From the NCBI RefSeq assembly GCF_963675165.1, contig NC_087378.1, positions 6,839,573-6,903,572 of the forward strand: a stretch of DNA of 64,000 nucleotides. Reading direction: 5' to 3'. This document shows positions 78 through 24,317 of this stretch, in pieces; within the stretch, counting starts at the first letter, position 1, and the number at the start of each line of letters is the position of its first letter. The notes under the pieces are model-generated. The model searched no databases, was not told where the DNA came from, and saw nothing but the letters and a program-made list of their open reading frames with translations. Source of the stretch: Halichondria panicea. Lineage: Eukaryota > Porifera > Demospongiae > Suberitida > Halichondriidae. The position numbers and the translations under genes are program-made.

Positions 78-1738
78 ATGCAGCTTTGCAAAAGTACACG
101 TATACTGATGTTGATGAGCCTGGTGGTGGCACCGACGCTGGGTTGCCATCCTGGTACGTTATTTAAGTAATGCATGGAGCTGATAAGACCAGACATGATT
201 AGTGCATGAGCTGTCCTCTGTAAAAATAGTGTGCATGAATTCAGTTGCATGAACTGCATGGCTATAGTTGAATTTGTGTGCTCAATTCCTCATATACAGA
301 TCAAGAAGGGGGTGTGTCTGCTAACATTGCCTGCAGCCAGAGCTCCATGCAAGTCACCTGGGACATACCAAAGCTCCTTGAATCCTCCCCCCAGCAGACA
401 ACGCAGGGGGTAGAATGTGTGAACATGTTGCAGTTCAACTGTACCTACAATGGAACAGTGGTGAGTGTTGTACAACTGTGTCTGTGAGGGAGGTGCACAT
501 TGAAAATTTATATGCGCGTACGGTAAAGATCATTAAGTAGCATTCTCAATGTTGACCACAGGTTGCTGATGGAGTGTTGACAAAGGATTGGTGCATCCAG
601 TTTAGGTCAAACCCTCCACTCAATCCGATGCAAACCTTCACTGAAAATGTCTCCCTGCCTGCTGGTGCAGTATGCAAGTTGTCAGGATGCTATTTGTGGA
701 CCACTTACCAATATGGTGATGTATTTATGGACCGAACAGATTATGCACTATCGGAGAAATCATGCACCGTTGCCAACTCAGCAGGTTTGTTAGCTGAACA
801 ACACTACTGCTTGTGTATTACATAACTTTGCAGATGTTTCAAAGACTGTGATGCCAACTGCGACCATACGTCCATTAACTACTGTCCATCCACTACTATC
901 TCCTACTCTAATGGCGCCTCTGACTAGCATCACCTCACAAACTGATCTCACAGTCACACCTACTTCCGTAAGGAGAGGACCAACTACAATGCTTGTATCA
1001 GCACCTTCACCAGCACTGCACACACCCACTGGTAAGTTGACTGGCAGTGTTTTTCACAATTTTTTTACTGATAGACACACGTGATACAGTATTAATATAC
1101 TATTCTTTTCTCTATTTAGATATTAGTGCTCCTCAGTTTGTCTCGTTGTTCTTTGTTTCTCTGTTTTCTTTGCTTCTACTGCTGTCCTCAATCTTTATTG
1201 TCGTCATGGTGAGAGTAAATTTGAGGGCCAACCGAAGGTGAGAATCATAAACTATAGATCTACCCATCATACTTATCATCCTATACTATTCATGATCAGG
1301 CTGCAACAAACTAATCGGAAATACTTTGATGGTCTGAAAGATTTTGATAGTTTCAATCCAGTCAGCTCATCCGCAATTATCAGTGCAGTATCAGTTCCAT
1401 CTCTTATCGACACTTTTGGCGATGGTGCTGGAAACAGTTGCCCAAACTATGAAGTACAAAATGGCTACTCTAATCTGGCAAAGGAAGAAGAACATGCTGG
1501 GAGTCCAGATAGTGACATTAGCTCAGTCCCTTATGAAGTGATGAATTCTGTAAGCCAACAACAACTGGCCATTCCACCCATGCACCTTCAGAGTACGATG
1601 AATGCATCAGATGACACCTCAATATCGTTTGATTTGCTGAGTCTACAGTCATTGGATCATCATACTGTGTCACTAAGCGAGGTACAAGTCATTGAAAGAA
1701 CTGAGGACTACATCTGTCATAACCTGTCTATCATGTAG
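78..1738 (+). CDS. Receptor family member A: single-pass membrane protein with Tyr-motif tail
   Basis: Six exons close in one frame: 78-153, 300-460, 562-784, 834-1031, 1120-1237, 1300-1738; 404 residues. Residues 1-22 are a signal peptide (start MQLCKSTRILMLMSLVV). Residues 26-153 form the Cys ectodomain shared with the neighbours, including the CKLSGCY and CTV elements. Residues 154-219 are a Thr/Ser/Pro stalk, and a hydrophobic helix follows at about 225-247. The 145-residue tail opens with the family motif (DSFNP ... SVPSLIDTF) and carries NYEVQ, GYSNL, PYEVM and DYICHNL tyrosine sites. PYEVM fits the YxxM consensus for the p85 SH2 domain, which is inference. There is no TSP1 or EGF module. 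AATAAA lies about 70 bases after the stop. The family is not one I can name; membership rests on intron phases 1-0-1-1-2 and tail motifs shared with genes 7185-10865, 11512-14693 and 15077-17276. Confidence 0.72.
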
Positions 1739-1999
1739 ATTATCTTTTTCCCTCTATAATTATCATAGTTGTTCACCTATTTTCTTTTTCATCCACGTAC
1801 CTATTGTCAATAAATAATGCTACTATAATTGTATCACTACGCACTATGATGTGTGGGAGTCAGGAGTGCGCTTGCATTTGTATGTTTTCACTATGCGGTC
1901 ATAATTATTGTGGTATACCTCTGACTATAATTATTATGTAAAGTGTTCATATCAGGAGCTCTACCACTTGCACTATAGCAACTAAAGCAAAAAGTAAAG

Positions 2000-4759
2000 A
2001 TGACTCAATTGCTCTTGGCCTGTAGTATCCAGATGCTACTTCTGTGTCTGCCTGCCATGCAAACTGCATCAACATGCCCTGCATGTAAGCATTAATTTTA
2101 GTTAATGTTAATCAGCTGTCTTGCAATTGAAGGTGGAGATTATGGCATAGCCATGAGTGAAGGTGTCTCTCTCTTGTGCAACAACACAACTGTGGAGATT
2201 GTGTACAGTCTCTCAAACTACTTGACTTTAGCTCTGATGTGCACCAGCCCTGACAGAAATGTAAGTAAGGATTCACTGCATCTGAACATGTATAGGCCTA
2301 TAGTAGATTCTTTTGTAGACGATAAAGGAAATAACCATCGAATGTGAGTCGGACCGTGGACACTTCAGCAAGACACTCAACCTGACAGCTGAGGGTATTC
2401 TGCCGGGAGACGAGTGTGTTGCTAGAGGTTGCTACGAGGATGATTTCTACGAATCATATAACCTGGCCAGCTACAGCTGTACAATACCCCGTAAGCCACT
2501 GCTTGTTCCACTATGACAACCCCTAGTGTTGATTTTAGAAAGTGGTAGCTACTTTGTAGGATTTCGTAGGCAGATGAGATAGTTGCTATGCCCCTGTATG
2601 AAAGTAGCTGTTAGGTTCCTAAAATGTATCATAGTTTTGATACTGCATGTGCATGTGCAGGTGACTGTGTGTGGAGTGAGTGGGGAGAGTGGAGCGAGTG
2701 TGACGGTGAGTGTGGAGAGGGGAGACAGACCAGGAGCAGGGTCGTTGTGACCACATCAAAGGGAACTGGGAGGGACTGCTCAGGACTCTCCAGCCAGAAC
2801 AGGACGTGCAACAACAACCCATGTTTAGGTGAGTCAAAGTATATATGTGTGTAACAGTGATGCAATACAAAGAGTCTCTTCATCCAGTGGTGAGATCATT
2901 ATAAAACTAAAAAAATGTATAATCTAATTAAGTCACAATTGTTGCCATATTTCGTGACCGTTGCTAATTGTCTACTTCCACAGAAATTACAGCTGTGCCA
3001 TCACCCGCAGCAACTGCTTATTTTCCAGTGACTATGGGTAAGAACATTTATTATGCCTCGAGGTGTAGCCGCACAAAGGATACGGTAAAGCTGACTGTGT
3101 GTGTGTGTCTGTCTGTGTGTCTGTTCCAGCTGTAACTGCTCAACAGTTTCAATGCAATGAAAACTAACAGCTTCTATAGGCTTCTTCTAGCCACGTTCTC
3201 TTGGATTTTGATTCGTGGATTAGCAAACTAAAGCTTCTTTCTCAAGTTATGGCTGGTTTGACTCACATTGAAGGCTGTTGCAGTCTCTTTAGAATATTTT
3301 GTAGCATTATTTCTTCGCACAAAGTTTTCTATTGAACTTATGAGTTAGACTTGCTCTAACTAAAGCGCTAGCTTTTTATTAGCTACAAGAGTCAGAAAAG
3401 AGCTGCTAAAGCAGCTACCGTAAGATCTCGATTTAAAGCGACACTTTTTAATAATTACGAAGCCAGAGGTCGCTTCTTTTGGAGGTTGAAAGTTATATTG
3501 AAGTCCTGGTGTCGCATATTTAGAGGGTCGCATCTAATTGGAGATAACTTTACCGAGTCTACTTGCCTCGATTTCAGGCCACTTAAAAACACTGATTTTC
3601 CAGTGGGCTCAGTACAATCGAGGCTAGGGAGTGGCTACATTTACCTCTATTTAGAACGCGACATTAAAAAATAATTGTCAACGCAGCTGTCGCTATTTTT
3701 AGAGGTCAGAAAATCGCTAAAGCTCCTGGGTGTCGCATATTTGGAGGGTCGCCTCAAATCTAGGTCTTATACGATAGCTATTTAGTAGCCATTAATTTTG
3801 TAAACTTGACCTCTGGCAGACACACCCCTTATTCCAGTGGATCTAATGCGCATGCGCGCTTTGGCTGAATCATTTTAATCTTTTTGAGGTCCTGGTAAGC
3901 CACAAAACACTATACAATGCAATGATAGATAACAATAGATGCATGTACACAAGTTTTTCTTCTCAGTTATAATACACTTTCTTTGTATGAATGCAAATGC
4001 AAATTTTAATGTACTCCCTACTATAAACTCTACTACTTTTTGAGCGAAAGCATAAACCTGGCGTAAGGTGTATTAGCACAGCGCAGCTTGCAACACTCAT
4101 TAAGAATTGCATGCGCAACAACACCAGTGCATGCATGCTGTAATAACCCCTGCTGGTGGTTGAGTTTGTATACCATATTTGTTATTTCGTGGGCAAGCTG
4201 ACCTCCACGAAAACCTAGGCATGCAATGCAATGAAATTTTACTCACGAAAATCACTGTTTTTGAGCTGAACGAATTTTTTATGGTAAGTAGCCATGAATT
4301 CGAGTTGGATCAGTTTTGTGTATGCCATACAAGCATAATAATACCAACCCATATAGCCTTGAGTTGGTATAACAGCCGACATTGTCCTCTCCTCCTCTAT
4401 TAGCATATATTATGCCCAGCATTTTTATAGCTGTTATAACAGTCATGTACCTTAAATGGCCGGCTTCTTCGTGCAGGAGAACATAGTCCTAGTACTAGTT
4501 CAGAGTGGACAGTTCCAGTGATGGCAGCTCTTTTCAGTGCGCTCCTTCTTGTGCTAATCATAGCCACCACACTAATCCTACTCCTGATTGTCTGCTGTAC
4601 CACTAGAACTAGAAGGTAAATTGTGCACTGCATACACTAACTGTTAAAATTGACTTTGTGTGTTATTTATTTGTGCACAGGCTCGGCAAAGTGTCGTTTT
4701 TAAGAGATGCCTCGACAGTGATCAATAACGAAGCCTATGTGGTGAAAGTCAAACACTAA
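2000..4759 (+). CDS. Receptor family member B: TSP1-containing membrane protein, very short tail
   Basis: Seven exons: 2000-2084, 2133-2260, 2319-2490, 2661-2828, 2984-3037, 4477-4615, 4681-4759; 274 residues. Signal peptide 1-24 (MTQLLLACSIQMLLLCLPAM). Residues 29-128 are the family ectodomain (LPGDECVARGCY, then SCTIP). Residues 130-185 are a thrombospondin type 1 repeat with the WSEWGEWSEC core and six Cys. A short stalk leads to a membrane helix at about 219-242 and a tail of only about 26 residues ending NNEAYVVKVKH. The tail lacks the juxtamembrane motif of its relatives, so it may be a non-signalling or partner-dependent form (inference). The membrane exon sits behind a 1.4-kb intron filled with repeat DNA. 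Exons 3 and 4 are close in sequence to those of the gene at 7185. Confidence 0.72.
3045..4150. repeat. Repeat-rich intron of gene B
   Basis: This 1.1-kb stretch of the fifth intron starts with ATTATGCCTCGAGGTG and a GT-rich run. It contains several near-copies of short words such as GTCGCATATTTGGAGGGTCGC near 3510 and 3730. It interrupts an otherwise compact gene. No open frame, transposase or clear terminal repeats were found, so the class is unknown. Confidence 0.35.
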
Positions 4760-4935
4760 AGTTGAACTGTGGACAATAAAATAATTATTGGCTTGATATA
4801 AAATGTTAAAAATCCTTATTTGACTGTCATAATGTTTTCCCTTTGTTTTCTGTGCTGCTCTGAATGATGATTGTGGTTTTAAGGTGGGTGGATGACATCA
4901 CTGAGACATAGGTGGGTGCTGCCGCAAGTTCATGT

Positions 4936-5138
4936 ACCGTATATATAGCGTGTAATTTTCGTGATTCGTGGTTTTCGTGGTTGGAGGTCTGACCACAAAT
5001 ATTTTACCCATGAATGAAGCGACCTTGCCTAGCTTACCTGCAGTGCAAGCAGCAACCACGAAAATATTACCCACGAAATGTCTCAATATTGCTGAACCAC
5101 GAATATTTTGTCCCCCGAAAATTACCCGCTATGTACGT
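4936..5138. mobile_element. MITE, ACCGTATA family (copy 1)
   Basis: A fold-back element about 200 bp long, starting ACCGTATATATAGCGTG and ending with the complement (CGAAAATTACCCGCTATGTACG). Inside are inverted copies of words such as CACGAAAATATT. The same ends occur near 11182, 31180 and 43645-43880. It lies between receptor genes and has no coding capacity. Confidence 0.6.
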
Positions 5139-5152
5139 ATGCTCCTGAAGAT

Positions 5153-5264: not shown

Positions 5265-5621
5265 CTAGAAGTATTAAAATGGTTCAGCAGCAAGATTCTC
5301 ACACTGACAGTAAGACAATCATTTGTTGAGTTTTTGACCATTTTTGTGCACTCCTGGTGTTATTGGTACAGAAACATCTTGAAACAATGTTTCTGTACCT
5401 CTAGCTACTTCCCACTAGCAATCCCCAAAAAATTTCTGTTATTTCCAAATGATACCTAGTATAAAGGGACATTAAATTGAAGTTGTGGGAGGACTTGGAA
5501 AGGTCTGAATTTTCCATAGAAGTAGTTTTCCTGGGGGTAGGGAGCACAACACGGCTGTATCTTAGCTCAGTGTATGCATTTTATATGCAGATTATGGGAG
5601 CACGTGATCCGTTTCATCTAT

Positions 5622-6880
5622 GATCTAACATGCACAAGTGCAGACAACTCCAGTGTATATGTAAGCAGTGCATTGTCAACATTTCGGGGGATGAAATTAT
5701 TATTTTTCTGCAGACATCAGGAAATATCGATTGTGAGTTAGATACGACTAAAAGTGGACATCGCACCAAGACGCTCAACCTGACAGCTGAGGGTATTCTG
5801 CCGGGAGATGATTGGGTTATTAAATTAGTGGTTGCTATACGAGTTGAAATTTTCGCCATATACACTGGATAATGTCAGGTGTACGATTCCTTGAACATTG
5901 TTTCTCCTGTGGACCAAAATAGCTTGTGAAATGTAATGGGTCAGTGGGTCACGTATAATTTCCCTGGTGTGTTAAGTATTATTACAACTTTGGTTTTCTT
6001 ATCTCAAAGCAGCCCACTAATTTATCACCACATACATGTTTCAGGTGATTGTGTGTGGAGTGAGTGGGGAGAGTGGAGCAAGTGTAACGGTGAGTGTGGA
6101 GAGGGGAGACAGACCAGGAGCAGGGTCGTTGTGACCACATCAAAGGGAACTGGGAGGTACTGCTCAGGACCCTCCAGTCAGAACATGACGCAACTCCTGT
6201 ACAACTGGTGAGTCTACCTCAAAATACTTAGCCTCGTTCCCAGCCGATCCGTCTCTAGCGTTCAATTGGAGACGGATCGGCCTGGGAACGAGGCTACAAA
6301 ATACTCAGAGCATATCGTAGTGATCTCACAGAAAAATGTGAGCAGATGAGAAAAAGCTTGGCACTGCTTAAATGTTAAGACTAAGACTGTATGATGTATA
6401 GTTGGCACTGTGGAGTGGGCTAATGGAGTTGCGTAAGGTAGAGGACTAACCAGATCTAATTACAAACCGTGTTTTGGGGCTAAGTAAAACCATTGATGCA
6501 TAGTGCACTTCGCCATGGATGTTCACGTCATGTCAAATTAGCTAGCCATGAATTCAAGTCGATCAGTTTTGCGTATGCCATACAAGCATAATAATGCCAA
6601 CCCACAGCCTTGAGTTGGTATAACAGCCGACATTGTCCTCTCCTCCTCTATTAGCATATGTTCCAGTGATGGCAGCTCTTTTCAGTGGGCTCCTTCTTGT
6701 GCTAATCATAGCCACCACACTAATCCTACTCCTGATTGTCTGCTGTACCACTAAAGCTAGAAGGTAAATTGTGCACTGCATACACTCACTGACTGTTAAA
6801 TTGACTTTGTGTGTTATTTTATTTGTGCACAGGCTCGGCAAAGTGTCGTTTATAAGAGATGCCTCGACAGATCAATAACA
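5622..6880 (+). pseudogene. Receptor family member C: broken mosaic copy
   Basis: Pieces match the two flanking genes. 5622-5660 matches the end of exon 2 of gene D, 5714-5890 matches its exon 3, and 6045-6210 is a TSP1 exon. The membrane exon at about 6660-6770 and tail exon at 6833-6880 match gene B instead. No signal-peptide exon was found. The exon-3 copy has a small insertion (GATTGGGTTATTAAATTAG) that destroys the frame. The TSP1 copy has lost a Cys and runs into the intron. The acceptor of the membrane exon is missing because about 100 bases present in gene B before GTTCCAGTGATGG are absent. The tail copy stops early at DASTDQ. A MITE sits in the intron at 6229-6296. Confidence 0.75.
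6229..6296. mobile_element. 68-bp MITE with 9-bp target duplication
   Basis: TAGCCTCGTTCCCAGCCGAT ... CTGGGAACGAGGCTA folds into a near-perfect hairpin. It is flanked by CAAAATACT at 6220-6228 and 6297-6305. The paralogous intron of gene D near 8950-8970 has a single CAAAATACT and no insert, which gives a direct empty-site comparison. A 9-bp duplication fits Mutator-like elements best (family knowledge), but no transposase is present. Confidence 0.8.
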
Positions 6881-7184
6881 AAGCCTTAGGCAGCCCTATG
6901 TGGTGAAAGTCAAAGTTGAACTGTGGACAATAATGACTTGATATAAAATGTCTTATTTGAATTTGATTGTCATAATGTTTTCCTGTGCTGCATTGATTGA
7001 TTGTTGTGGTTTTAAGGTGGGTGGATGACATCACTGACATATTTAATTTATATGGTGGGTGGATGGGTGCTGCCACATGTTCAGTTAATTATGTTATGCA
7101 TGCTCCTGTCTCATTAAATTTTATCTCTCAGTGCAACATGAAGATGCTGATAGTTAGCTAGCAGTAAAACAGTCGAATGAAGCG

Positions 7185-10100
7185 ATGGCTATTCTGTCCT
7201 GTAGTGTGCTTGTGTTGCAGATGCTCCTACTGTGTATACCTGCCATGCACGCGGCAGGTAATGCCTGCGTTATTACATGTAAGTGAACACTTTAATACTA
7301 GTACTACTCGCGCTCACAGCAGTTTCTATCTTTATATGGCTTGAAAATAGATGTCTAACTGCTCATTTCTACTCAGGTGGAGAACATAGCTCCCAAATAC
7401 ACGATGATCTAATCTCTCTCGACTGTGGCAACTCAACCATCATCATCGACTATTCTATGACTAGCACTCTAAGTCTTTATCTCCCAAGCCTTGATCTAAC
7501 ATGCACAAGTGCAGACAACTCCAGTGTATATGTAAGCAGTGCATTGTTGCAAAATTTCAGGGGATGAAATTATTATTTTTCTGCAGACATCAAGAAATAT
7601 CGTTTGTGAGTTAGATAGTACTAAAAGTGGACATCGCACCAAGACGCTCAACCTGACAGCTGAGGGTATTCTGCCGGGAGATGATTGTGTTATTAGTGGT
7701 TGCTACGAGACTAAAGAGATGTCTACACATACACTGCATAATGTCAGGTGTACGGTTCCACGTAAGTTAAACATTGTTTCTCCTGTGGACCAAAATAGCT
7801 TGTGACATTCTCTATTAATAAAACTGTGTCATTTCCTGGATGGGTCAGTGGGTCACGTATAATTTCCCTGGTGGGTCAGGTATTATGTGCTAGTGTAAAC
7901 CTCCCTCATTCATTGCATGTGAACAGCATTTTCCTACTAATTGGATGGCAGTTCCCTGTGCTGTGTGTGTTTGTTAGCCTCTACACAGGCTCTCCTTTTT
8001 CTGTTCTTTATTACAATCGTTAAAATACTGTCTTAATCGTTCAATGAGATAAAATACGGTATTAATTGGAGGATTAAAGAAAGAAATAGACATAGAGTTA
8101 GGAAAAAGGAGAGCCTGTATCGGGAAGTCGCGTGAGGGTAGAAGGGTGGTAGAAGGGTGAAAATGAGCATGGGCATGCTGAGCTAGAGATGTTGGACTGC
8201 CCACGCAGATATCTATGACCAATAAAACTTTGCCTGCAGCAAGCTGGACATGGACTTGGAACTGGAAGTTTGCAAGCACTATAGCTAGCTATATACCTTA
8301 GGCTTAGCTAGATGATCTACTAGTCTAGATTGTGTGTTCAGATTCTATCAAACTATTACCTTTTCTTGTGTCTTTCTACATGCTAGTATAGATCAAGAAT
8401 AGCTTAGTCATCATTATCATATAGCAGGTAGCTACTGCTGGCCACGCTGGTTCTCTGATCTGACTTGCAGCACAGCTTGGTGGTTGTCTCAGTACAGTCT
8501 TATTAACTTTGAATGCGTGGGAGAATACTTTACGTCACAATTGTGGGCTACATATCGCCCACGTTCATAAAAATCCTTGTGGATCACGCGATTTCCCAAA
8601 CCAGGCCTTACTTTTTCTTAACTGTACGCCCATTTTTTTCTTTGCTGCCTCACTAGCACTATGTCTTTCTTGTGATGTGTTTGTGCAGATGGCTAGTAGC
8701 AATTAAGATAATGTACAACTTTGGTTTTCTTTTTATCCTTATCTCACTCAAAGCAGCCACTAATTTATCACCACATACATGTTTCAGGTGACTGTGTGTG
8801 GGGAGAGTGGAGCGAGTGTGCCGGTGAGTGTGGAGAGGGGAGACAGACCAGGAGCAGGGTCGTTATGACCACATCAAAGGGAACTGGGAGGGGCTGCTCA
8901 GGACCCTCCAGCCAGAACATGACGTGCAACTCCTGTACAACTGGTCAGTCTACCTCAAAATACTCAGAGCTTATCGTAATGATCTCACAGAAAAATGTGA
9001 GCAGATAAGAAAAAAATTGGCACTGCTTATGTTAAGGCTAAGACTGTATGATGTATAGTTGGCACTGTGGAGTGGGCTAATGGAGTTGGCTAGGGTAGGA
9101 CTAACCAGATCTAATTACAAATCGTGTTTTGGGGCTAAGTAAAACCATTGATGCATGGTGCACTCCCCCATGGATGTTCACACCATTAAATCTGTTTGCT
9201 GTTTGTCTCTCCAGTTGCTGAGCCAATAAAGGCATCAATGAATTCAAGTACGAGTGACTGCAACACTACCACTTGTCATCAATATGCTGTGTGCACTGGC
9301 TTGCCCACTCCACAGTGCTCCTGTCTGAGTGGCTACACTGGCGATGGATATGAGTGTGTCCATGTTGGTCAGTTGATCTAAGCTGTTAAGTGTTGTAGTG
9401 GTTTAGTCAGCCTGAGGGAGTGTAAATACGTAGTGGCTGAGAGGCATATCACTAATAATTGTACCACCTCATTTGGTCCACCCAGCAGGTTACTATCTGA
9501 GTTAGTTTTTATTACTCATTTAGCATGGCTACTTGAATATCCATAGCCCATAACTCAAAACAATGGTGTACATTGTGTATACCTTATAAGGATAAGTAAC
9601 ATTGCTTTGAAGTCAATTGTAAATAAATTTCATTATTTACTACTGCCTTAACAGTGACAGAAGACTGGATGCCTCTGGTGGTTGCTGTAGTAACTGCACT
9701 AATCATCTTCGTAGCCATTGCAGTGATTTTGCTGAGTGCAATTTTCATTTACAGATTCAACAGAAGGTAATAAACACACTCCTATTGTAGTGGGTGCCAA
9801 AATTAATTCCCACTTACCACAGACATCGTTATCTGGACCACAGACGTTTAAGAAAGCTTATGGGGGTAAGGATTTCTCGTTTCTAAATGATTAACTTCAC
9901 CCAACTTTCCACAGACATTTGACCCAAATTTCACCCCCAATTTATCCACCAATCTCAAGAAATACGCCGCTGTCTCAGAAATCTCAGTATTCGATACCCT
10001 CTTCCCACCAACCCACCATCCTCAAACTGATTACATCACTCTGGATCAACTGGGCATTTATATCCATACCAACCGACGCAGACCATCGGACTCGGACAGC

Positions 10101-10865
10101 TGCATGGAACTGGATGCTGCAGGGCTCCCCGACAGCAAAGAAGAGTCTTCTCTACAAACCGTAAACTGCTCACAATCACCAAGAAACTCAATAGTCAACG
10201 GCTCTACGTTTTCCCTGGACGTTACTATGGTTCAAGCACTATTTCAAATGCCAGGGACGTTCCATAACTCGTATGCCATGTCTGACGATAGTGAGGGTAG
10301 AGACACGCCGGATTCTGAACCACAGGACTTTGTTGAGGACATGCTGAGAATAGACATTGAGAATATATCTGATGAAGAAGATGGCCAGTATATAGTCACA
10401 GAAGGTGGAGAAAGAACTGTGGAATGTTTGCTACAAGAAACAGTCGAGCAAAATGTTTCTCCGGAAGTTTCTGAACCTCAGGACTTTGTCGAGGACATGT
10501 TGAGAATAGACATTGACAATATCTCTGATGAAGAAGACAACCAGTATATAGTTACAGAAAGTGGATTGTTAAAAAAAAACGTCGAGCGAAATGTTTCTCC
10601 GGAAATTTCTCTCGAGATAGTGAGTGATGATGACTGCTCACAACCCTGTGATGTAGATGAGTGTTATATCAACGTTGGTGGTGTTTGCTTCACATACCCC
10701 TCCAGTGAACACATTGAGCACAGTCAATGGACCAATCATTCTACAGACTTTAATAAAGCGCATTCATCACAACCCTCATTAGCTTTAGAGCAGAACTGTC
10801 ACTTATTACCCTCCCCATTCAGTACCTCGACTCCCTCAATTTTTGTCAATAATAATAATTATTGA
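7185..10865 (+). CDS. Receptor family member D: TSP1 + EGF membrane protein with long Tyr-motif tail
   Basis: Eight exons: 7185-7278, 7377-7531, 7587-7761, 8788-8943, 9215-9367, 9655-9766, 9823-9865, 9915-10865; 612 residues. The start was chosen by alignment with gene B (MAILSCSVLVLQMLLLCIPAM). Residues 32-141 are the family ectodomain, 142-193 a TSP1 repeat and 195-244 one EGF-like domain (CSCLSGYTGDGYEC). The membrane helix is at about 250-272. The 43-base exon encodes a basic stretch. The tail (297-612) begins with FDPNF ... AVSEISVFDTLFP, the family juxtamembrane motif, followed by TDYITLDQLGIYI. It contains a 52-residue block duplicated in tandem with EPQDFVEDMLRIDI and QYIVTE in each copy. 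AATAAA follows the stop by about 45 bases. The third intron (1 kb) holds a fold-back element. Confidence 0.75.
7985..8118. mobile_element. Fold-back element in gene D intron 3
   Basis: ACAGGCTCTCCTTTTTC at 7985-8001 is the exact reverse complement of 8102-8118. The 134-bp unit is non-coding. A related but degraded block (CACGCGATTTCCC ... CTTTTTCTT) occurs at 8583-8612. No target duplication is obvious. Confidence 0.5.
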
Positions 10866-11511: not shown

Positions 11512-14500
11512 TCAATATACGTCATTTAGTTGTGAATGATAGAGTTCTGCTCCTGGTGTTGTGTTGACGTAGGTTGGGCTTGTTGGTTCTACTAACTCAT
11601 CGTAGTTGATGGGTTCAAAATGGGAGGGGTTCAACGATAGGCTGCACTCAGCAAAGACGCTCTCAACATACTTATCCTCGGACACACCACTGATCGCATC
11701 AAATTCCCCGCCCTCATCAAGGTTGTACCCGACCGAGTCAGCATCATCTTCCTCGCTCAACACTTCGTCTATGGTCTGTGTTGAATCAAACACCGGATAC
11801 TCAGTCTGCAGCAGGTGTGAGGGGAGGTGCTTCATTGCGCTCATTCCAGGGTCAGGGGTCATTAGGGGCTTGTAGTAATCGGAAGCTGGTGTAGTAGTCA
11901 CATCAGTTACATAGCCACTGCTGGCCGAGCTGCTTAATTGTGTTCGAAATTGGTACGGTTTTGGTTCACCCCTGTTTTGATTCCAATACAGGGTCCTTGG
12001 AGTCGTGCGAGTCATGTCCGCGTGTGGTATGTAGTCTCCATGCTCCTGCTGCTGCTGCACACCTTGTACGGGAATTGTGGAAGGCTGAAAGTTTCCAATG
12101 ACATATCCTGGATTGTTTTTCACTGGCAAATAATTATAGGACTCATAGTCGCTTTCACGAGGAGCATCTTTCTGATTTGGCTCTTTATTCAAATCATCAA
12201 CTGAAGGTCTTCGCTTCTCTTTGGTAGACTCAGGGGGTGGCTCCATCGTATTATTGTTGACTGTAGTATGGCCCATAAATTGGACAGACTGGACGGAGGA
12301 GCTGTCACTGTTGGGGTTCATTCCCTGAAGCACTTCTGATCGATCATCATCAGTTGAGTCAGGAGGAGGGGGGTTCGGGAGGAACGTATCGAACACACTC
12401 ACAACGGAGACAGCTACCTTCACTTTAGCATTGATGTCGATTGGACTGAAGTAGGGGTCAATGGGCTGCAGGGAGAGAAAGTGTGTGTTTGTGTGATTAG
12501 TGTATTTATGGATTCTGGTTTATATAGGAAGTGATGAGGTGGTTGTATAAATTATATATCCTGTGTTCTGAGAATTACCTCAGAATAGTTGTAGTATCTC
12601 ATCAGATAGTTCTTCCGCCTGTGAGCGAGAAAATGAGAGTGCAATAAAGGTGTGAGCAGGCATAGCATGTGATTGTGCTAGAGTGCATTGACATTACAAG
12701 TACACTTGTGTGTGTGTGAACATCAACAACTCTATATAGACATTAAATGCAAATACCAAAGGCTTGATACTTGGCAGAATGCTCAAACTACATAGGCAGA
12801 AGCCAGGTAACTAACAGATGACCTCATGGCTACATTTACTTGTACCTCTTCCTAATAACCTTTATGGCACCTACTCTATGCTGCTAGGGCACCTCGGGTA
12901 AACATTGGTATGAACACTGTGATCGAAGCCAACCTCAACCCTCTATCAAAAGGAAAAGTTCTTTTGTGAAAAGCATCACTTGTATACAATTACTGCTAAA
13001 TATGCAACACATTGGAAGCAAGTAATTGTGTATGCAACTCCTACACTGGGCTCAAGGATTGTCACAAACACCTAGAGTTACTTTGAGTCTAGACTATATA
13101 AAAGCTGATCTCATTCCTTTAAGCTTGAATGACTGCAGTAACTTTACACTGAGCAAACATCATCTTAGATCATGCATTAGAGTGGATATGCCATAAGTCC
13201 TTTACCTCTGCACCTGCTGGAACCTAAGGATGATACCCAGCAGCACTAAAACACACACCACAGCCAGAGCCAAGATCACCACAACAACGACCACAGCTGA
13301 AATATTGCCAGCTGCAAGGGGAGAAAGAAAATCCTTTTGAGTGCAAAGAAACCAGGTGCTATACATGTACCTGTCGCCTGTCATTATCTAAAACACGACT
13401 GTCACTCTCATTGCACAAAAGTGCATAAAACTGGTTAGCTAACACTAACTGCCTTCCATATGCTATGGAGACAGCCATTCAATCGTTAAAAAACTCACCT
13501 GAGGAGTCAGTAGGTAGGGGGGTTGTTGTTGGAGTGGGTATAGTCCCTGTGGGTGCTGGAACAGTGCCTGTTGGAGATGGAATGAGAATGGAGCTAGAAT
13601 AAGGATCAGAAACAATAAGCGGAGGATTTGTGGCATCGGGAACAGTAGGCTCTGTGGTAGGCTCTGTCACTGGTGCTGTAAGTAATAAACATATATTACC
13701 TAATCAAAGCACTTGAAAACAGAGTCTTATTACCTTTATATTCACAAGTGACATTGTTAATAAGGTAATGTTCAAAAATACTGTCTGTCGTACTGACTTC
13801 GTAACAGCCCCACACGAAACAGAGAGCCGAAACACTAGTGAACGGTGGAGAGAGGGGAACATGATAGACAAAGCCATCAAGACGAGTTCTCTCACTATTA
13901 GGCACCGTGTCATTTTTGACCTGCAAACCACATAAAATAATAATTATACAACAGACACACAATTAATTCTTACGTTTCCTGAGGGGCTGTGACACTTGTA
14001 GAATAACTGAATACGAGAATCACGAAGATCGTATTCATCAGCAGGGTAGTAGTCATGATAAAGTTGAATTCTTAATCCGTTGTCGGTGCACGTTAGATTA
14101 GGTTTGACGTAGTGGTCGGTCATAGCACTGTCTGTATACACAAAGAGAAAAAACACTGCATTATTGTATATTAGTGAATCTCTACAGCTGCCTTGGGGTG
14201 CTTGAATGGCTACTGTTATTGTCTAGAATGGTTTCTTGTCTGGGTAAATTGAAACAGGTTTCAAGAAGGTATGAGCAATGTAAGGTTACCCACTTAGCTT
14301 AATAGAGGGAGAGAGTTGACTGGTTTCTTTTGGGAGTATGTACAGAGCACTGTAGTACAGTGCAAGCACATCTAGCTATAATCATTTCCTAGATTGAACC
14401 ACCCAACCAATGGCGATACTGTGGCCATACAACCTAGGATTTTATGTAAGTACCCGGAGCAACAGCAGAATTGCATATCAATGTCATACGATGCAAAATT

Positions 14501-14693
14501 GCAGGACTAAAAGGGCTTTGCACAATGGATTTAATACATGACATTTATTTTGCTCATGTAGAGAGCTACCATACTTTACATTGACATTGTTATCTCATGC
14601 TCACTTACCACCTGGTAAGTCACATTCCTGTGCTAGTGAGGTTAGTGGTAGTATCAGCAGCAGACCACAGAGACTCAGAGGAACCATTGTCAT
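11512..14693 (-). CDS. Receptor family member E: membrane protein with long Tyr-motif tail
   Basis: Seven exons, in coding order: 14693-14609, 14131-13974, 13920-13734, 13675-13499, 13311-13206, 12618-12579, 12465-11512; 568 residues. Signal peptide about 1-22. Residues 29-143 are the family ectodomain (CFVWGCYEV then VTCEYK). A Thr/Pro stalk spans about 144-202 (PSPTGTVPAPTGTIPTP), and a Val-rich membrane helix lies at about 208-232. A 40-base exon gives a basic linker. The tail starts DPYFSPIDINAKVKVAVS and continues SVFDTFLP, the clearest version of the family motif. It also carries YNYLPV, GDYIPH, LYWNQN (fits pYxN for GRB2-type SH2, inference), SSGYVTDV and SDYYKPLM. There is no TSP1 or EGF module. 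A second in-frame Met lies two codons in. The gene is divergent from F across 383 bp. Confidence 0.75.
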
Positions 14694-15076: not shown

Positions 15077-17276
15077 ATGATCCTACCACTGGAGGTCTTG
15101 TGTGTTTTAGCACTATCACCTTGGATTTTTGCAAGTGCTCAGAGTGGAAAATGTGAATGTAAGTTTGCATTTCTGTATTACACCATACACAACCATTTTA
15201 ATCATCACTGCAAATACTCTCAATAGTTAAACTAGATGCAATGTGCTCAACCAGTGGTGCTGCAGTAAAATGGACCGTCCCCACAGAACATGAGGTGTAC
15301 TCAATCAATGGCATTCACTACTCATGTACCAATTCCAATGTAAGCCGCTATTCAGAATCATGATGGATTAGTAGTATATATATAATGTTCTGCAGACTAG
15401 CACTGTGTGGACTCATAGAGATGATATCTGTTTCAACAGACGTGGAAATGATAAAATAGTACTACCACAACGAACAGATTTTTCCGCAATGACTCACATA
15501 GTTGGGAGGGAGCTTCCCACTGGAACAATCTGCATTTTTACAGCATTTTCATTCGATGAATATGAAGATGACCGGTGCGATGAAACAGCTAACTGCACAG
15601 TGGGAGGTATGTATAACATATCAACTTTTACTCATGATTATTATGTGCTCACTATTATATCACTATAATTATAGAGTCGTTTACATTGCCTGCTAGCTGT
15701 GATGTCAGCAACAGCAGCAACGATATGAAGAAGAACTGTAGTTGCTCGTGCAGTCCGGGCTTTGAAGGAAATACTGAATCATTTGATGGAAATACATGTA
15801 AGTTGTCATATACCCATGGCATTGCATTGTTTCATGCATGCCTAATTATTGTCTCATGGAATACATGCATGGTTATCATGAATATTGTACCTTTGTTTGC
15901 ATAATTATATATATATATATATATTACATGCATGTGTTCAGGTGAGGCAATAAATGTCACAATTGAAACGGACGTTACTGTGAGCTTGACAAACTCCATC
16001 ACACCTTCTACATCAATGCTAGAACTCAGCATGACATCAATACTAGTGGAAACTTATTCACAGATAGAGGTGGTGGTGACTCCTACACCTTCAGTGGAAA
16101 TGGGAGATCTAGAGACGCTTTCATCTGGTAAGATTACACCTACTAAAAGAAATGCCTTACCTATATGATAACCAAAATGGATCCCATGCTAGATCATGGA
16201 ATGACTATCAAAACTGAGCTATTTAAAGTGGAGCATACAAGATCAACAGGTTAATAATTAACTTTACATTAATCATGTATTGATTCATACTCTCATATAC
16301 AGGAACTGGAATGTTGAGTCCAACACCTACTCCTGTAATGCAAGATGACAACAGTGCCCAAAGGAGTAATCTGATAATCGCTTTCACACTATCAGCAGTT
16401 CTGATACTGGTCATACTTTTAATTCCTGGGTTGATGTGGGTGGTCATTGTCTGCCGGAATAGCAAGATAAAAAGGTCAGTAACACGATATACTTGTTTAC
16501 TTTGTTCACTAATAAGATTGACTGGATTTCCTGTCTCACACAGATCGCATGACAAACTAGCTATGCCTTTTGAAACTCTAAGGTTTGAGGTAAGCCATGC
16601 ACACAATCTTTATTTGTACCATAGTTAGAGTATTGTCTTTCTTTTACAGAGGATTGACCAAGACTTTAATCCAATTGACATTAACAAGATGATATTTGTG
16701 AGCGAATCAATGCCCAGTTTATTCCACACATTTGGTTCAGGAGACCCAAACTTAGAACTGGGAAAAGAAGAAGCTGATTTTGACTCACAGAGCACCCAAA
16801 CCGAAATAAACTCACCGGCAAAATATAGAGAGTCCATTACAATGAATGAGACAGATGAAGAAGAAACAATTTTGAAAATTGAGCAACAGATCAGCTTAGA
16901 CAGTTCTACTGATATGAGTTCGGGGTACGTTACCGACTCAATAAAGTCTGGTCACCTGTACGAGCAAACATCAGAATATATCGAAGCCTTAAACTTTGAA
17001 AATGACCAGAATAGCTTCAACGAAAGACCTGTCATTGATGCAATCAATCATTCATCATCTACGGTACCAAACATGGAAGCGAAACCTAGTGATTACTTGG
17101 TAACCAATACTAAAAGTGTACATACCACTATCGCAATGGACTCTAAAGAAGTAAGCAAGTACCTCTGGAATGCAAACATGGAATTATTACAACAGCCAGC
17201 TGACTACATACTACCCACCTTTGCCAAGCCACAAGTATTTTTTAACTTCCCTAAGGAAGTGATGCATGATAATTAA
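15077..17276 (+). CDS. Receptor family member F: EGF-like membrane protein with Tyr-motif tail
   Basis: Eight exons: 15077-15158, 15227-15339, 15396-15606, 15675-15797, 15942-16127, 16303-16474, 16544-16589, 16650-17276; 519 residues. The first ATG of the frame gives a signal peptide (MILPLEVLCVLALSPWIFAS). Residues 28-135 are the ectodomain in its second subtype (VKWTVP, SCTNSN, LPTGTICIFTA, CTVGG). Residues 136-177 are an EGF-like Cys cluster (CSCSCSPGFEG). A stalk spans about 177-255 and the membrane helix about 257-286. The 46-base exon encodes LAMPFETLRFE, conserved in H and I. The tail starts IDQDFNPIDINK ... SESMPSLFHTF and has SSGYVTDS, SEYIEAL, SDYLVT, KYLWNAN and, at the end, DYILPTFAKPQVFFNFP, which matches H and I. 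Confidence 0.8.
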
Positions 17277-18039: not shown

Positions 18040-18790
18040 AAAAAATGTCTATCTGTTGTGTGGATTGCTGCTTGTTCCAATCATCCAGACACGAGTTATT
18101 TCAACAGGTGAGTGCATGTGCACGACGTATACAATCCATTATTGATGTTCGTACCCAGCCTTCATTAGTGAGCTTTTAATGTAAGCACTGTGTTCGTTAA
18201 AATAGCCTCGTTCCCAGGCTGATTTTTCTTTAATAGAACGAAGTGGCGACCTAGCGTTATATTAGAGACAACTCTGCCTGGGAACAAGGCTATAATTATG
18301 TGTTCGTCAGCCTACAATGGCTACAACTGACCTTGACTTCAGTTGCATCAGTTCTAATGTGAGGTTGTGTATACACTATTCGCTAATTAAGTATATGCAC
18401 CATGCATCATTGAACGAGCCCAATCATGCATGCAGGGTGAAGTGACTAATGAAGAATCAAGACAAGTGCTTTCACAAGCAGAGATATGGGTTTTTTTTAT
18501 CAGATACCGTTCCATGACACACGCTCTCATTACGGATCTAGAATCAGGAACAGTTTGTACATTATTGCACAGGTACATACCGGATTGATACGAATATTTA
18601 CTTTAAACTGTCGTTGCTGAATGTGCAATTGTATGCTAAATGAGTTTCAACCACTTAATGCTTGACTGCACTGCACTGTAACTAAAACAACATGACTGTA
18701 TGTACAATGCAGCCTCTAGCAGTCAGTCAGTGTTCATGCAGCCCAAGCTTTGAGGGGTTAACTGAAAACCACATTGATGCACTGTAATCA
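18040..18790 (+). pseudogene. Receptor family member G: decayed copy
   Basis: Fragments line up in order with gene I (22400-24317). 18310-18358 matches the end of exon 2 (CTTGACTTCAGTTGCATCAG then AATGTGAG). 18433-18573 matches exon 3 (GACAAGTGCTTTCACAAG ... CATGACACACGCT ... GGAACAGTTTGTACATT). 18715-18787 matches the EGF-like exon (CAGTGTTCATGCAGCCCAAG). The exon-3 copy is shortened and out of frame, and the EGF copy ends at a stop. No stalk, membrane or tail exon follows. A TAGCCTCG-family MITE sits inside at 18203-18292. A candidate signal segment begins near 18047 but is weak. Confidence 0.65.
18203..18292. mobile_element. MITE, TAGCCTCGTTCCCAGGC family
   Basis: TAGCCTCGTTCCCAGGCTG at the left end pairs with GCCTGGGAACAAGGCTA at the right end. 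The 90-bp core shares GCGACCTAGCGTTATATTAG with the 68-bp copy at 6229-6296 (TAGCGTTCAATTGGAGAC). It is non-coding. Confidence 0.65.
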
Positions 18791-19703
18791 ACCTATTATG
18801 TCAAGCCGGCAACAACAACAGAGGAACCTAGCATCTCATCGTCACATGATAAAATTATTAGACGGCACCACTGAAGCGCTGCATTGCCTCAGTTGTAACA
18901 GTAAGTCCTACAAGAACTCTTATAACGATTACACCAAACTAACTGCGGTCAATGCTCAGATAACACAAACCAGGACTGCATGTAACCATGACTATGGTCA
19001 CTGTGATATCATTAGAGCCAACTTCAATATCTATTTAGTAGGCACTCTATATAGCTATATAATAATTATTACATGCCATCTGTATTCTATAGTATCTGAT
19101 AGACGCACTTACTGCCTGAATAATTATGTGTGTACTACGTATTACAATTAACAGCAAACCACAATTATTGGCACATCTGTGCGAGGGTGTATATAGCTAA
19201 TGGAATGCATTTAAGAGGCAACGAGGTTTGTGGGATACCCCACTCCATTAGTAGTTTACAGAGCTCATTTTTCACACAGGATCATCATCAAGCAATTTAG
19301 CATCACTTATTCATGTGTAATCAGCATTACAAGCATTCTATGCGTAGATGCATGATGTACAGTAGATCTCTGTACTGTTACATAACCACCAAAATACATA
19401 GTTAAATCCAAGAAAGCAATGCCGCCAGGCTACAGGTATTGTAGCGCTAGCACATAATTATGCTTCCCTCACTGCATGGTTGGTATGGTGATTTAAAGGC
19501 ATGATAATTTAATGTGTGTGTGGGATGTTTATCATGCACTCAAATTGTGGCCACATTAGTATAAGCCATAGACTCACTGTGTAAACTAAGGACGCAATTA
19601 GGGAATAGTTGGAAGTCTTTCACACATGAACCCGATGACACAAGATGACTATATAACCACAAGTGCATGGACAGTGTATTGAAGCTAGCAAAAGACATGT
19701 GGA
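18791..19703. other. Spacer between broken copy G and receptor gene H
   Basis: About 900 AT-rich bases. A 125-codon open frame at 18774-19151 runs from the dead EGF copy but has no family resemblance, signal peptide or splice context. Nothing else is supported. Confidence 0.4.
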
Positions 19704-22016
19704 ATGGCACTCTTTACAACAATGAGCATTGAGGTTCTGTATATCTTAGGACTGCATGCAGTACTTATTGCAAGTGAAGGCAAGTTAAAAGATACTGCAT
19801 GGATACATTAGAGATTCCATGCTTATAACCATGTTCGACATAATTATGGTGTATATGTACAAACATATACAGACTTAGTTGACCTGGAAGCACTGTGCTC
19901 GTCGAACAGAGCTGGGGCAAAGTGGACAGTTATATCACCTACTTACAATGGTGCTATCGATCTCGACTTCAGTTGCACTAATGTTCGTATGTATACTAAG
20001 CATGCACATTTTAAACATCCTTCTTAATCTGTAGGAGAATATGACACTCAGCTCTGACAATTGCTTCCATAAGCGTGGTGGGCTACCTGTTCTAAGGCAA
20101 CTGCAGATACCAGAGCCTTATTCAATGACTCATGTTATCAGTACGGACCTAGCACCAGGGACAGTGTGTACATTCACCGCCAATGTGCTGAACCGATTTC
20201 AACACCAAGTAGAGACAAGTACTACAAGCTGCACAGTTGGAGGTACATGTGTGTATTGTATGAAACGACTCGAAGGACTATTTCATCTTCACGTTCCCAT
20301 ACAGCCCCAACTGCACCAGCTGTGCTACCAGCTGAATGCATATTTGCTAATGAACAATGTCAGTGCTCATGCAGTCCGGGCTTTGAGGGAATAGCTAACA
20401 ACAGCATTGACGGGAATGCCTGTGAGTTACTACTAAACTAGTTGTGTACAATAGAGACAAATCCTTTTCTATGTAGGCAAAGAAGTTGCCAATGAGGTAG
20501 CAAACATAACATTTACATCGAAGTCCATCCTCACCATAGCCCCGACCAGCACTATAGCGACCCCAACATTCACTAATAGCTCATACCTCATTACTACAAC
20601 AGACGTGACTAAACCAGCTACAGCCTCCAATTTTATTTTACCGTTTGCTGAATCAGCAACGATCATCACTACCTCACCCACACCTACATCAGTTGAAATT
20701 TTACCCCAAGGTGAGAGAACAATAAATATATAGTAAGAGTGCAAGCACGAGTAACAAGCAATCGCAAGGCTTCTAATTGCCATTGCTTGTTATGACTGCT
20801 ATTAAAATCCCTTATTGCACGAGTAACCATGCAAACTAATCGTTTCTGAAGTTTTATAGCCGCGGCTGTTTCATCGTATAATTCACAACGTGCAATTACT
20901 TGCTAACTATAATAGTATGGCTTATAACAAGCACTGGCAGGCACGGTTAATAGCACTCAGCTACGCCTCGTGCAATTAGAAGCCTTGCCGTTGCTTGTTA
21001 CTCGTGCTATTAATCCCTTGTTGCACGAGTTAACTATAATTACACTATATAACTAATGGTTTATGAAATTCTCAGCAGTTTTATACCTTTTCAGCCGCGG
21101 CCGTTATTCTAAAGCAATACGTTGTCATTTGACAGCGTGCAATCACACGACAAGTAATATCACGCTGTCAATGAGGACGTGCAATTACTGGACTGGATGT
21201 GATACGGGATTACTTGTTGTACAATTAGTCACTATAGTAGCACATCATACGATTAGCTTTTAAATGATCGTATTTCATTTCATCTCATTTTATTATATAG
21301 CGTCAATACTCACTACCGTCATCTTGCTACCAGCCATAATCATTGCTCTACTGCTAATAATTGTCTGTCTACCACTGATCTGTTTCGGGAGAAGAAAACA
21401 TCGGAGAGAAAGGTATAATTACCAAATACTTCTCTGTCGGTGTTCTAATGTATTGTTTACTTCTAACAGATTACACATGATGCAAGCTATGCCTTTTACA
21501 ATACAAAAGTCTGAAGTAAGCAAAACACTCATTATAATTATAGTGACACATGTTAATATTTTTTCTTCTACACAGAAAATAGACCCTGACTTCAATCCAA
21601 TTGAAATCGGGAAATCGACTGTTGTATCGGAATCAATGCACAGTATATTTAACTTTCTCAATCCAACCGGCTCAGACATTCAGCTTCCTGCAATTGAGGG
21701 AGCACAAGAATTCCACGGCAATAACACAGCTACAAATGATCAGGAAGACACTAAGTGTTCTTGCAATAACAACGAGAAAAACTCCGGACATGTGACAGAG
21801 TGTACACGCCAAGACAGCTTGATTAGTGAGATGACTGAATACCTTGATTCTCCTGGGTACGGGAGCGACAATAAAAAAGTGTCGACACATTATTGGAATA
21901 CTAGTGATTACGTTGATGATCCATCATCACAATTTTCACAGCCAACTGACTACACCATGCCAATTTTTAGCAGACCACACGTCTATTTTAGTTTCCCTAG
22001 TGACTTTTTGAACTAG
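19704..22016 (+). CDS. Receptor family member H: EGF-like membrane protein with Tyr-motif tail
   Basis: Eight exons: 19704-19779, 19873-19982, 20035-20242, 20305-20421, 20477-20710, 21301-21412, 21470-21515, 21576-22016; 447 residues. A downstream Met at 19722 is also possible. Residues 26-131 are the ectodomain (AKWTVISPTYNG, FSCTN, NCFHKRG, APGTVCTFTA, CTVGG). Residues 132-171 are EGF-like (CQCSCSPGFEG), then a Thr-rich stalk to about 248. The membrane helix is at about 250-274. The small exon has MMQAMPFTIQ. The tail has DPDFNPIEIGK, SESMHSIFNFL, NSGHVTECT (Tyr replaced by His in the YVTD/E motif), EYLDSPGYGS, HYWNTSDY and a C-terminal DYTMPIFSRPHVYFSFP. Intron 1 appears to use a GC donor (GAAG/GCAAGT) and intron 2 a weak GTTCGT donor, so expression is less certain. 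Intron 5 carries a repeat. Confidence 0.68.
20735..21110. repeat. Complex inverted and direct repeat in gene H intron 5
   Basis: GCACGAGTAACAAGCAATCG near 20745 is mirrored by GCCGTTGCTTGTTACTCGTGC near 20985-21006, next to a mirrored AAGGCTTCTAATTGC / GCAATTAGAAGCCTT pair. CCCTTATTGCACGAGTAAC and the AGCCGCGGC block near 20810-20865 recur in direct orientation at 21014-21105. It is probably a fold-back element with partial duplication; no coding capacity. Confidence 0.5.
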
Positions 22017-22399
22017 TGATTGTCTTTATAATACTGATAACTACATACTGAGCTTTTAACATGGATTATGGCATACGTGAGCTAGGTACAAACATTAAAT
22101 CGATTATATGCATGTTTTAATACATGTTATGTTAGGTACATGCATGTGATTAAATGTATACCACATGCATGACTGTCTGACATCAACAAACTAGAATTCT
22201 GTAAATTGTATGTGAATTGAACACATTAATGGCTATGTACATGTACACATCCGTGCATGTGTGGGCAGATTCAACAATACAACTGTTAAAATAATACGAG
22301 GGAGTTACTTGGAATGCATGACCATGCATGGCTTTTTATTATGCATTAAGCACAAACAGCACAGTTTTTACTCAGTTCAATTTCTCTATATAGCTTATA

Positions 22400-24317
22400 A
22401 TGGAGTTCTGTAATTTGAAAAGCAGTAAAATATCCAGCTTTATTATAGCGTTACTCTCAATGCTCAGTGTACTGGCCAAAGCAGAGGGTATGTGTAAAAG
22501 TAAATGTTTACCAACAATTATTCAGCATGCCTGCCGTTGTGTTGCATAGACTTAGTGAGCCTGAAAGCACTGTGTTCATCTAACAGAGCTGGAGTGAAGT
22601 GGACAGCTATCTCACCAACCTACAATGGTTACATTGACCTCGACTTCAGTTGCACCAATTCTAATGTGAGTATATAATTTATAATTTTAATAAAATTATA
22701 AGTACACACTTTTTGTGACAGCTATATAGTCATATATACATGCAGGGTAACATAACACATGTTGAAAGACAGGACAAGTGCTTTCACAAGAGAAATGTGC
22801 TACCTGCATTGGAACATATGCTGTATCGTTCAATGACTCATGCTATCAGTATGGATCTTGAAACAGGAACAGTATGTACATTCATTGCATGCATAAAGAG
22901 CCGATTTGAAGAGTACATGGATACAGTCAATGACACTTGTACAATTGGAGGTATGACTGTACCACCTCAAACTAACTTGACCTAAACAAATCCTTTACAG
23001 CTCCTACTGCTCTACCTGTACTACCAGCGATATGTAAACGTACTGGCAGCGAACAATGTCAGTGCTCATGCAGTCCAGGCTTTGAGGGAATAGCTGACAG
23101 CAGCATTGACGGGAACACATGTGAGTTGCCACGCACTGGCAACACACAAACGTAATTACGATTCTATTGCAGGCGAGGCTATCGTAGTTCCACACCCAGC
23201 ATCTACAGTGACCTCCACCTTCATCATTGCCCCAACAAGCTACATACACGTAGTAGCAACCCCAACACGTAGCAAGCACCTAGTCACAACAACACCTGTA
23301 ACCACACCATCAATCACAACCACTTCATCCATATCTGCACAAACAAGCCCTTCAATAACAATTCCACTTACTCTTCTAACTGGTTCACCTATAGCTACAG
23401 GGGCTGTGAGCCATGACTCAGGGCTTGGTCATTCCAACACACCCACTGTCATATCGGTGGTGTCAGGAGTGGCTGCAGTACTCCTCATAGTAGTCATCGG
23501 CATGGTGATATTTTGTTTGGGGACGGTCAAGTACAAAAGAATGAAGCTAAACAAGTAAAGTATGCTCTAATAATTAATCTATGATTTATGGTCGCTGTAT
23601 ACTCTAACAGGTTTCACGAGCAGCGTACCATGCCTTTTAAACAACAAAAAAGAGAAGTTAATAACTAACAATAAATAAATTGAGGTCAAACATGTGCTTT
23701 ATTCCCAATAGAAAATTGACCCGAACTTTATTCCAGACAATTGGAAAATGGATACAAGGATAGCCATGAGCAAGTCAATAGACAGTAAGCTAGACACGTT
23801 TCCACCACACCCACATTCTTCAACTGAGGAAGAAGGTGCTGCTCTAATGATGGCCATCACTGAGACTGTTCCTGGTGAAGATGGACAAATTAGCAATGCA
23901 GAGAAACGAGGCGCTTACGTTTACAGAGTGAGTGAAGGGAGCTCAGGATATGTGACTGAAGGTAGTTTGGGCTTCATATCAGAATCACTAATTTGTCAAG
24001 TGAAAAACTACACGGACTCTATCAGTCAAGACAACAATGAAGTGAGATTGCAAGGAGAAGGTCACGTTCAGAATGAAAGAGGCTATATAGTGGATAGAAA
24101 AAGCTCTCAACAGACCAACTGTTCTGAAGACTACATGGACTCTATCAGTCAAGACAACGATGGAGTGAGATTGCAAGGAAAAATTGACGTTAAAAACGAT
24201 GGCTATGTAGTGGATAGAAACAGCTCACAACAGACCAACTGTTCACCTGAAAACTATCTTGCACCTATTTTATGTACTGACGTATCCTTTACTTTTCCCT
24301 TAGACATGAATTCTTGA
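22400..24317 (+). CDS. Receptor family member I: EGF-like membrane protein with Tyr-motif tail
   Basis: Seven exons: 22400-22487, 22550-22665, 22746-22950, 23001-23120, 23173-23554, 23611-23656, 23712-24317; 520 residues. Signal peptide about 1-28. Residues 30-136 are the ectodomain (VKWTAISPTYNG, FSCTNSN, DKCFHKRN, ETGTVCTF, CTIGG), and 137-177 are EGF-like (CQCSCSPGFEG). Stalk and membrane helix (about 268-292) share one exon here, unlike F and H. The small exon has QRTMPFKQQ. The tail has KIDPNFIPDN, SKSIDSKLDTF, SSGYVTEGS and a 41-residue block repeated twice (TDSISQDN ... SSQQTNCS), each with GYIVDR or GYVVDR, then ENYLAP and FTFPLDM at the end. The donor after the small exon is GTTAAT, which is weak. 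Confidence 0.75.

Follow-up and report, generated by a model that had tools for sequence, protein, structure and literature searches.

We identified a cluster of related genes in the first 24.3 kb of a 64,000-nucleotide stretch of the genome of the sponge Halichondria panicea (NC_087378.1, positions 6,839,573 to 6,903,572, forward strand; hereafter, the window), comprising seven open genes (A, B, D, E, F, H and I) and two broken ones (C and G) of one family. The seven genes appear to encode a single, unnamed family of surface receptors, with a predicted anatomy of a hydrophobic signal exon, an ectodomain, optional TSP1 or EGF-like modules and one membrane span, together with, in six of the seven proteins each, a stalk rich in serine, threonine and proline (S/T/P; not in D) and a two-box motif with tail tyrosines (not in B). 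The clearest mark of the family, and our strongest result, is this juxtamembrane two-box motif. We propose that the proteins are receptors that would recruit cytoplasmic signalling partners, a reading to which, taken as a whole, we give a probability of about 0.5.

Gene models and exon plan

The models of the seven open genes were rebuilt exon by exon and are predicted from sequence. The features of the cluster, in window coordinates, are as follows.

78 to 1738, plus strand: gene A, 6 exons (78-153, 300-460, 562-784, 834-1031, 1120-1237, 1300-1738; all plus strand), 404 residues; ectodomain, S/T/P-rich stalk, membrane span, and a tail that carries the juxtamembrane motif
2000 to 4759, plus strand: gene B, 7 exons, 274 residues; ectodomain, TSP1, membrane span and a motif-free tail of about 28 residues
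5621 to 7037, plus strand: gene C, broken; D-like front half, B-like back half
7185 to 10865, plus strand: gene D, 8 exons, 612 residues; ectodomain, TSP1, EGF-like module, membrane span, then a 43-base exon and a 951-base tail exon carrying an internal duplication
11512 to 14687, minus strand: gene E, 7 exons, 565 residues; the ectodomain is followed by a stalk, a membrane span, a 40-base exon and the tail exon 11512-12465
15077 to 17276, plus strand: gene F, 8 exons, 519 residues; ectodomain, EGF-like module, stalk, membrane span, 46-base exon, tail
18046 to 18790, plus strand, limits uncertain: gene G, broken; remnants of ectodomain exons 2 and 3 and an EGF-like piece
19704 to 22016, plus strand: gene H, 8 exons, 447 residues; layout as F; GC donor at 19780, weak donor at 19983
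22400 to 24317, plus strand: gene I, 7 exons, 520 residues; layout as F, except that stalk and membrane span lie in one exon

All 44 introns of the seven models end in AG and 43 begin with GT, the remaining one (intron 1 of H) beginning with GC; the median intron is 68 bases long, a shortness that suits a demosponge. Among the several weak donors are GTTTGT (A), GTTAAT (I) and GTTCGT (H), and H may be partly decayed, because it combines the GC donor with the weak GTTCGT donor. The acceptor of the last exon of E, the only inverted copy among the seven models, was placed at 12465 from the sequence. As A begins at base 78, the cluster may extend beyond the left edge of the window.

The exit phases of exons 1 to 3 are 1, 0 and 1 in every one of the seven genes; any extra exons ahead of the membrane exon are 1-1, and the membrane exon itself always exits in phase 2. 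In D, E, F, H and I (5/7) there follows a short exon of 40, 43 or 46 bases that exits in phase 0, and then a single tail exon. Gene A passes directly from membrane exon to tail, B finishes with a 79-base exon and has no long tail, and I carries its stalk and membrane span fused in one exon of 382 bases. An earlier reading of this DNA (the original prediction) had described a clustered set of seven intact and two broken genes with one phase plan, including an exon of 40 to 46 bases ending in phase 0 in the same five genes, and these observations are confirmed by the spliced models; the single tail exon that it placed after the membrane part holds for six genes, but not for B.

One long intron of H (20711-21300, 590 bases) contains an inverted repeat, with arms at 20744-20780 and 20972-21008 that are 95% complementary, and looks like a small mobile element.

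Juxtamembrane motif and cytoplasmic tails

The first box of the motif, [IF]DPxFxP, lies at or near the start of the last exon in A, D, E, F, H and I (6/7), being one residue shorter in A and having Q in place of the first P in F. The second, a DTF-like box of the form [FIL][DHN][TF][FL], lies 21 to 25 residues further on, measured from start to start by manual count. The copy in H serves as an example.

21576 to 21704, plus strand: juxtamembrane two-box motif of H (KIDPDFNP ... IFNFLNP)

When each member was left out of the profile in turn, it was recovered in six of six trials as the best match outside the training set among 1547 open reading frames, with E-values of 5.2e-13 (F), 1.4e-8 (E), 2e-7 (H), 0.0093 (A), 0.046 (I) and 0.13 (D), the runner-up frame having E-values of 0.41 to 0.84. 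A profile of F, H and I alone ranks E, D and A next, and one of A, D and E alone ranks F, I and H. The pattern [IF]D.{1,2}F.P, which was derived from these same genes, has eight matches in 74,811 residues of open reading frame, all of them in the six family tails. No juxtamembrane motif was found in the broken gene G, and B, with its tail of about 28 residues, also lacks it. Compared with solved structures, the juxtamembrane profile gave a best E-value of 0.41, which we take as chance.

We additionally identified smaller motifs in the tails of subsets of the family. SG[YH]VT[DE] has four matches in the same 74,811 residues, in E, F, H and I, and the C-terminal block common to F, H and I combines a YxxP or YxxP-like site with VxFxFP; the looser VxFx[FY]P fits D, but also two unrelated open reading frames. 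The six tails other than that of B are 151 to 338 residues long and hold 5 to 22 tyrosines, the highest number belonging to the cytoplasmic part of E. A tyrosine-bearing block is duplicated inside the tails of D (10313-10610) and of I (24004-24256, the tandem repeat itself covering 24004-24244).

Beyond such short motifs, which are mainly what is kept, the tails diverge fast. Identical residues between H and I number 45/142 in the tail as against 62/102 in the ectodomain, and between F and I 49/187 as against 43/97; for F and H the two are roughly equal (48/140 and 37/102). The tails had been predicted to be conserved, and this is true of short motifs, with the two-box motif in 6/7, but not of the tails as a whole, as the comparison of H with I illustrates. 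Also supported from the earlier interpretation are one family on one plan, duplication with decay, and an ectodomain with no name in Pfam or among solved structures.

An unassigned ectodomain

The ectodomain common to the family spans 100 to 128 residues, is encoded by two exons and has equivalents in all seven genes of the copy in H.

19873 to 20242, plus strand: cysteine-bearing ectodomain of H, exons 2 and 3 with their intron, phases 1-0-1

Two ectodomain subfamilies can be recognised: A, B, D and E, with a GCY motif and a C-x4-C late in the ectodomain, and F, H and I, with CxFxA or a close variant. The predicted LPxG.xC mark is exact in A and F only; LPGDEC (B) and LPGDDC (D) are one residue shorter, and LAPGTVC (H), LETGTVC (I) and SVSALC (E) occupy its position in altered form. 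Aligned with each other in hhalign, the two subfamilies match only weakly, with an E-value of 0.0042 over 85 columns, a result that none of 40 column shuffles equalled. A profile of exon 3 of B and D ranks A (E 0.069) and E (E 0.13) first among the 1547 frames after B, D and the broken C. By themselves, the cysteine spacings common to the family do not reach significance, being matched or bettered in 1393 of 5000 shuffles, and we dropped them as a proof of homology.

For none of the seven ectodomains did we find a Pfam family above cut-off, and the best E-value of the ectodomain profile against solved structures was 0.33, taken as chance; the statement of the original prediction that the ectodomain has no named family is upheld in both collections. 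A description of the family was likewise not found in the titles and opening lines of abstracts of the open-licence PMC papers that our searches listed. The domain of the next gene was rejected as a relative of the ectodomain, since 11 to 29 of 40 shuffles were as good.

Added modules and the adhesion alternative

TSP1 and EGF modules had been predicted in several of the genes. TSP1 exceeds the Pfam cut-off of 21.6 bits in B only (39.3 bits), the TSP1 of D lying just under it at 20.8 bits, and all the EGF-like modules fall below theirs, with 21.5 bits against 28.5 in D and weaker values in F, H and I. S/T/P make up a fraction of 0.37 to 0.57 of the stalk in every protein but D, whose stalk is nearly absent (8 residues). 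No kinase or other catalytic domain rises above the Pfam cut-off in the seven proteins, nor is any kinase family listed, in which they differ from receptor tyrosine kinases. Sub-threshold Pfam matches in membrane regions, among them DUF3377 in E (E 0.00039, 20.7 bits against 26.5) and Protocadherin in I (E 0.016), were set aside as effects of composition.

The TSP1 of B, the weaker one of D and the S/T/P-rich stalks of six proteins would suit a family of adhesion or matrix receptors, in which modules and stalks anchor cells to the matrix and the motif ties them to the cytoskeleton or to endocytic adaptors, and it is consistent with this explanation that tyrosine motifs occur as often in shuffled tails. 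However, A and E have no module, the stalk of D is a mere 8 residues, and six of the seven tails are of the length and tyrosine content given above; we consider the adhesion reading unlikely. Compared with other TSP1 and EGF surface proteins of animals, the modules are optional here, and the marks of the family are its ectodomain and juxtamembrane motif.

Duplication, exchange and the immune alternative

Both broken genes attest to tandem duplication with decay, as had been predicted, and show DNA similarity to other genes of the cluster. In C, bases 5621-6526 match D at 83 to 93% and bases 6543-7037 match B at 84 to 93%; no signal exon is recognised, exon 3 is out of frame and runs into a stop, and the frame of the TSP1 exon is closed by a stop. 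G is 69% identical to I over 280 bases of ectodomain exons 2 and 3. Because C is a mosaic of B and D, the cluster recombines.

The TSP1 exons (B 2661-2828, C 6045-6212, D 8788-8943) are particularly similar, with that of C 95% identical to that of B. Between B and D, blastn detects the TSP1 exon (96% over 137 bases), exon 3 (88% over 83 bases) and nothing else. The 50 codons of TSP1 compared between B and D differ by nine replacement changes and no silent ones, a split that is not significant alone (about 0.1, estimated from the counts), while the silent divergence (dS) of their ectodomains is 0.90. The near-identity of the TSP1 exons against this ectodomain dS points to exchange between neighbouring genes, and hints at gene conversion. 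For the ectodomain, the four pairs compared gave ratios of replacement to silent divergence (dN/dS) of 0.18 to 0.64, dS being saturated in two of these pairs; averaged values below 1 reflect constraint, with which positive selection at a few sites is compatible.

A tandem array with two broken copies, the mosaic C, the inverted E, variable modules and unequal tails could also be read as an immune-type or allorecognition system, that is, a polymorphic and fast-changing array in which every copy serves another microbe or self tag. We regard this as unlikely: the ectodomain dN/dS values stay at 0.18 to 0.64, with the saturation noted, and Pfam lists no SRCR, Ig, lectin, LRR or TIR domain at E-values up to 1 in any of the seven proteins. 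The cluster resembles the sponge SRCR expansion (PMC10855680) in being a set of surface proteins enlarged in one lineage, and is unlike SRCR arrays in having an unassigned ectodomain, a cytoplasmic motif common to the family and no SRCR domain listed by Pfam.

We also sought relatives in viral contigs, genome contigs and plasmids. None of four matches to the E tail pattern in viral contigs, and none of 53 matches to exon 3 of H, I and F in genome contigs, was a relative, and bases 1-25000 of the window had no plasmid match. A viral contig match (L001, 1/46) of 22 residues on the opposite strand of a 554-residue frame, helicase-like by eye, was rejected as chance. Rfam returned nothing at gathering scores.

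A proposed recruiting receptor family

In our preferred reading, the genes form one recombining tandem family of type I receptors that cross the membrane once and have no enzyme of their own. The ectodomain would bind a ligand or a partner cell, and the two-box motif would hold a cytoplasmic tyrosine kinase or an adaptor; clustering of the receptors would gather the bound kinases or adaptors, such that tail tyrosines become phosphorylated and the resulting phosphotyrosines could serve as docking sites for SH2 or PTB proteins. B has retained the outer part, together with a short tail that lacks the motif, and would compete as a decoy or modulator. Duplication, with exchange among neighbouring genes, to which we would attribute the mosaic C and the near-identical TSP1 exons, may renew the outer parts. 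A recognition or immune role for the family is a guess. If these genes are transcribed and signal, they would represent a defined non-kinase receptor family in an early animal lineage, with a testable cytoplasmic handle, bearing on the origin of signalling via docked tyrosine kinases and on how such animals distinguish cells or microbes.

Several results weigh against this reading. In the tails, three of the leave-one-out recoveries are weak (E 0.13 for D, 0.046 for I and 0.0093 for A), the F/H/I profile around SGYVT places an unrelated tandem-repeat frame (E 0.0024) above E (0.032), and the profile of the F/H/I C-terminal block detects no further family member. The tyrosine motifs YxxPhi, ITIM (the immunoreceptor tyrosine-based inhibitory motif), YxxM, YxxQ, YxN, YxxP and NPxY are no commoner than in shuffled tails, and no ITAM (its activating counterpart) was counted in the tails; we rejected a reading of the tails in terms of ITIM, which does not exceed the shuffles, or ITAM, which is absent. 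In the ectodomain, hhalign gives homology between the two subfamilies a probability of only 8.1, and the F/H/I exon-2 and exon-3 profiles raise only G, not A, B, D or E, over background among the 1547 frames. AlphaFold2 yields no usable fold, the mean predicted local distance difference test score (pLDDT) being 41.4 for the D ectodomain (4 rows) and 58.1 for H exon 3 (7 rows), of which only the C-terminal hairpin reaches 70 to 80.

Comparison with cytokine receptors

The family resembles class I and II cytokine receptors, such as gp130 and the interferon receptors, in having a signal exon, a single span, no enzyme and a tyrosine-bearing tail. PxxPxP occurs in E only (PNPPPP) and PxFxP in D, E, H and I, motifs that may resemble the JAK-binding Box 1. 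The short juxtamembrane boxes are comparable to Box 1 and Box 2 as outlined in part of PMC1963337, and the two-exon ectodomain unit with phases 1-0-1 to the class II receptors, for which a passage of PMC8863823 gives intron phases of 1-2-1-0-1-0 in IFN-upsilon receptor genes. In contrast to cytokine receptors, there is one ectodomain unit and not two, the box consensus is another, and TSP1 and EGF modules are added. The class I signature WSXWS is in none of the seven proteins, and of the class II plan only 1-0-1 is common, as the family continues with phases of 1, then 2, and 0 in five genes. On the proposed mechanism, the family would work as a cytokine receptor does, while probably lying outside the class.

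In passages of PMC6797617, JAK and cytokine receptors are suggested to have possibly joined the pathway in Bilateria, and CRLF3 is reported as absent from Porifera; a passage of PMC11193209 has most JAK-STAT components present in non-bilaterians, with no functional studies. It is distinctly unlikely, in our estimate, that the cluster is an independent cytokine-receptor-like family of an early-branching animal, with its own two-box kinase-docking motif, a short-tailed decoy and a recombining array, in a lineage from which CRLF3 is reported missing.

Direct kinship with class I and II receptors would make the ectodomain a divergent FN3 domain, a domain type suggested by marks seen by eye (a W strand, L.PGT and CTV). 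FN3 is missing from the Pfam matches at E-values up to 1 in 7/7 proteins, and hhalign of the ectodomain profiles against five FN3 domains gave E-values of 0.13 to 0.25, with probabilities below 1; the seven-sequence profile beats 40 of 40 FN3 column shuffles, over 12 columns only, but for the other three profiles, including those of the subfamilies, 2, 4 and 9 of 40 shuffles were as good. We hold such kinship to be very unlikely, despite a two-exon, 1-0-1 ectodomain like the latter half of the class II plan (a passage of PMC8863823), the two-box plan and the tail tyrosines, in view of the FN3 results, the lack of WSXWS, a membrane exon that exits in phase 2 and not 0, and the possibly bilaterian entry of JAK and receptor into the pathway (suggested in part of PMC6797617), and we rate it slightly higher than we otherwise would because of the seven-sequence shuffle result.

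Other features in the window

24634 to 26750, plus strand, as gene I: the next gene, in which short exons with cysteines come after a Frizzled domain (Pfam E 1.2e-16); inspection by eye showed no membrane span in it, and an 81-base repeat occurs four times between exons (25506-25827)
29605 to 30090: a 54-base tandem repeat in nine copies, open in four frames, adjoining an EF-Tu-class GTPase gene
34674 to 37682: an Argonaute gene, one open frame of 1002 residues with N, L1, PAZ, L2, Mid and Piwi matches
38361 to 39026, minus strand: a membrane protein with one span by eye and no Pfam family

Searched with the juxtamembrane profile, the open reading frame just below this last protein does no better than background (E of at least 1.2). 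We additionally identified an HMG-box gene in the window that is SOX-like by eye, and SOX genes mark an animal.

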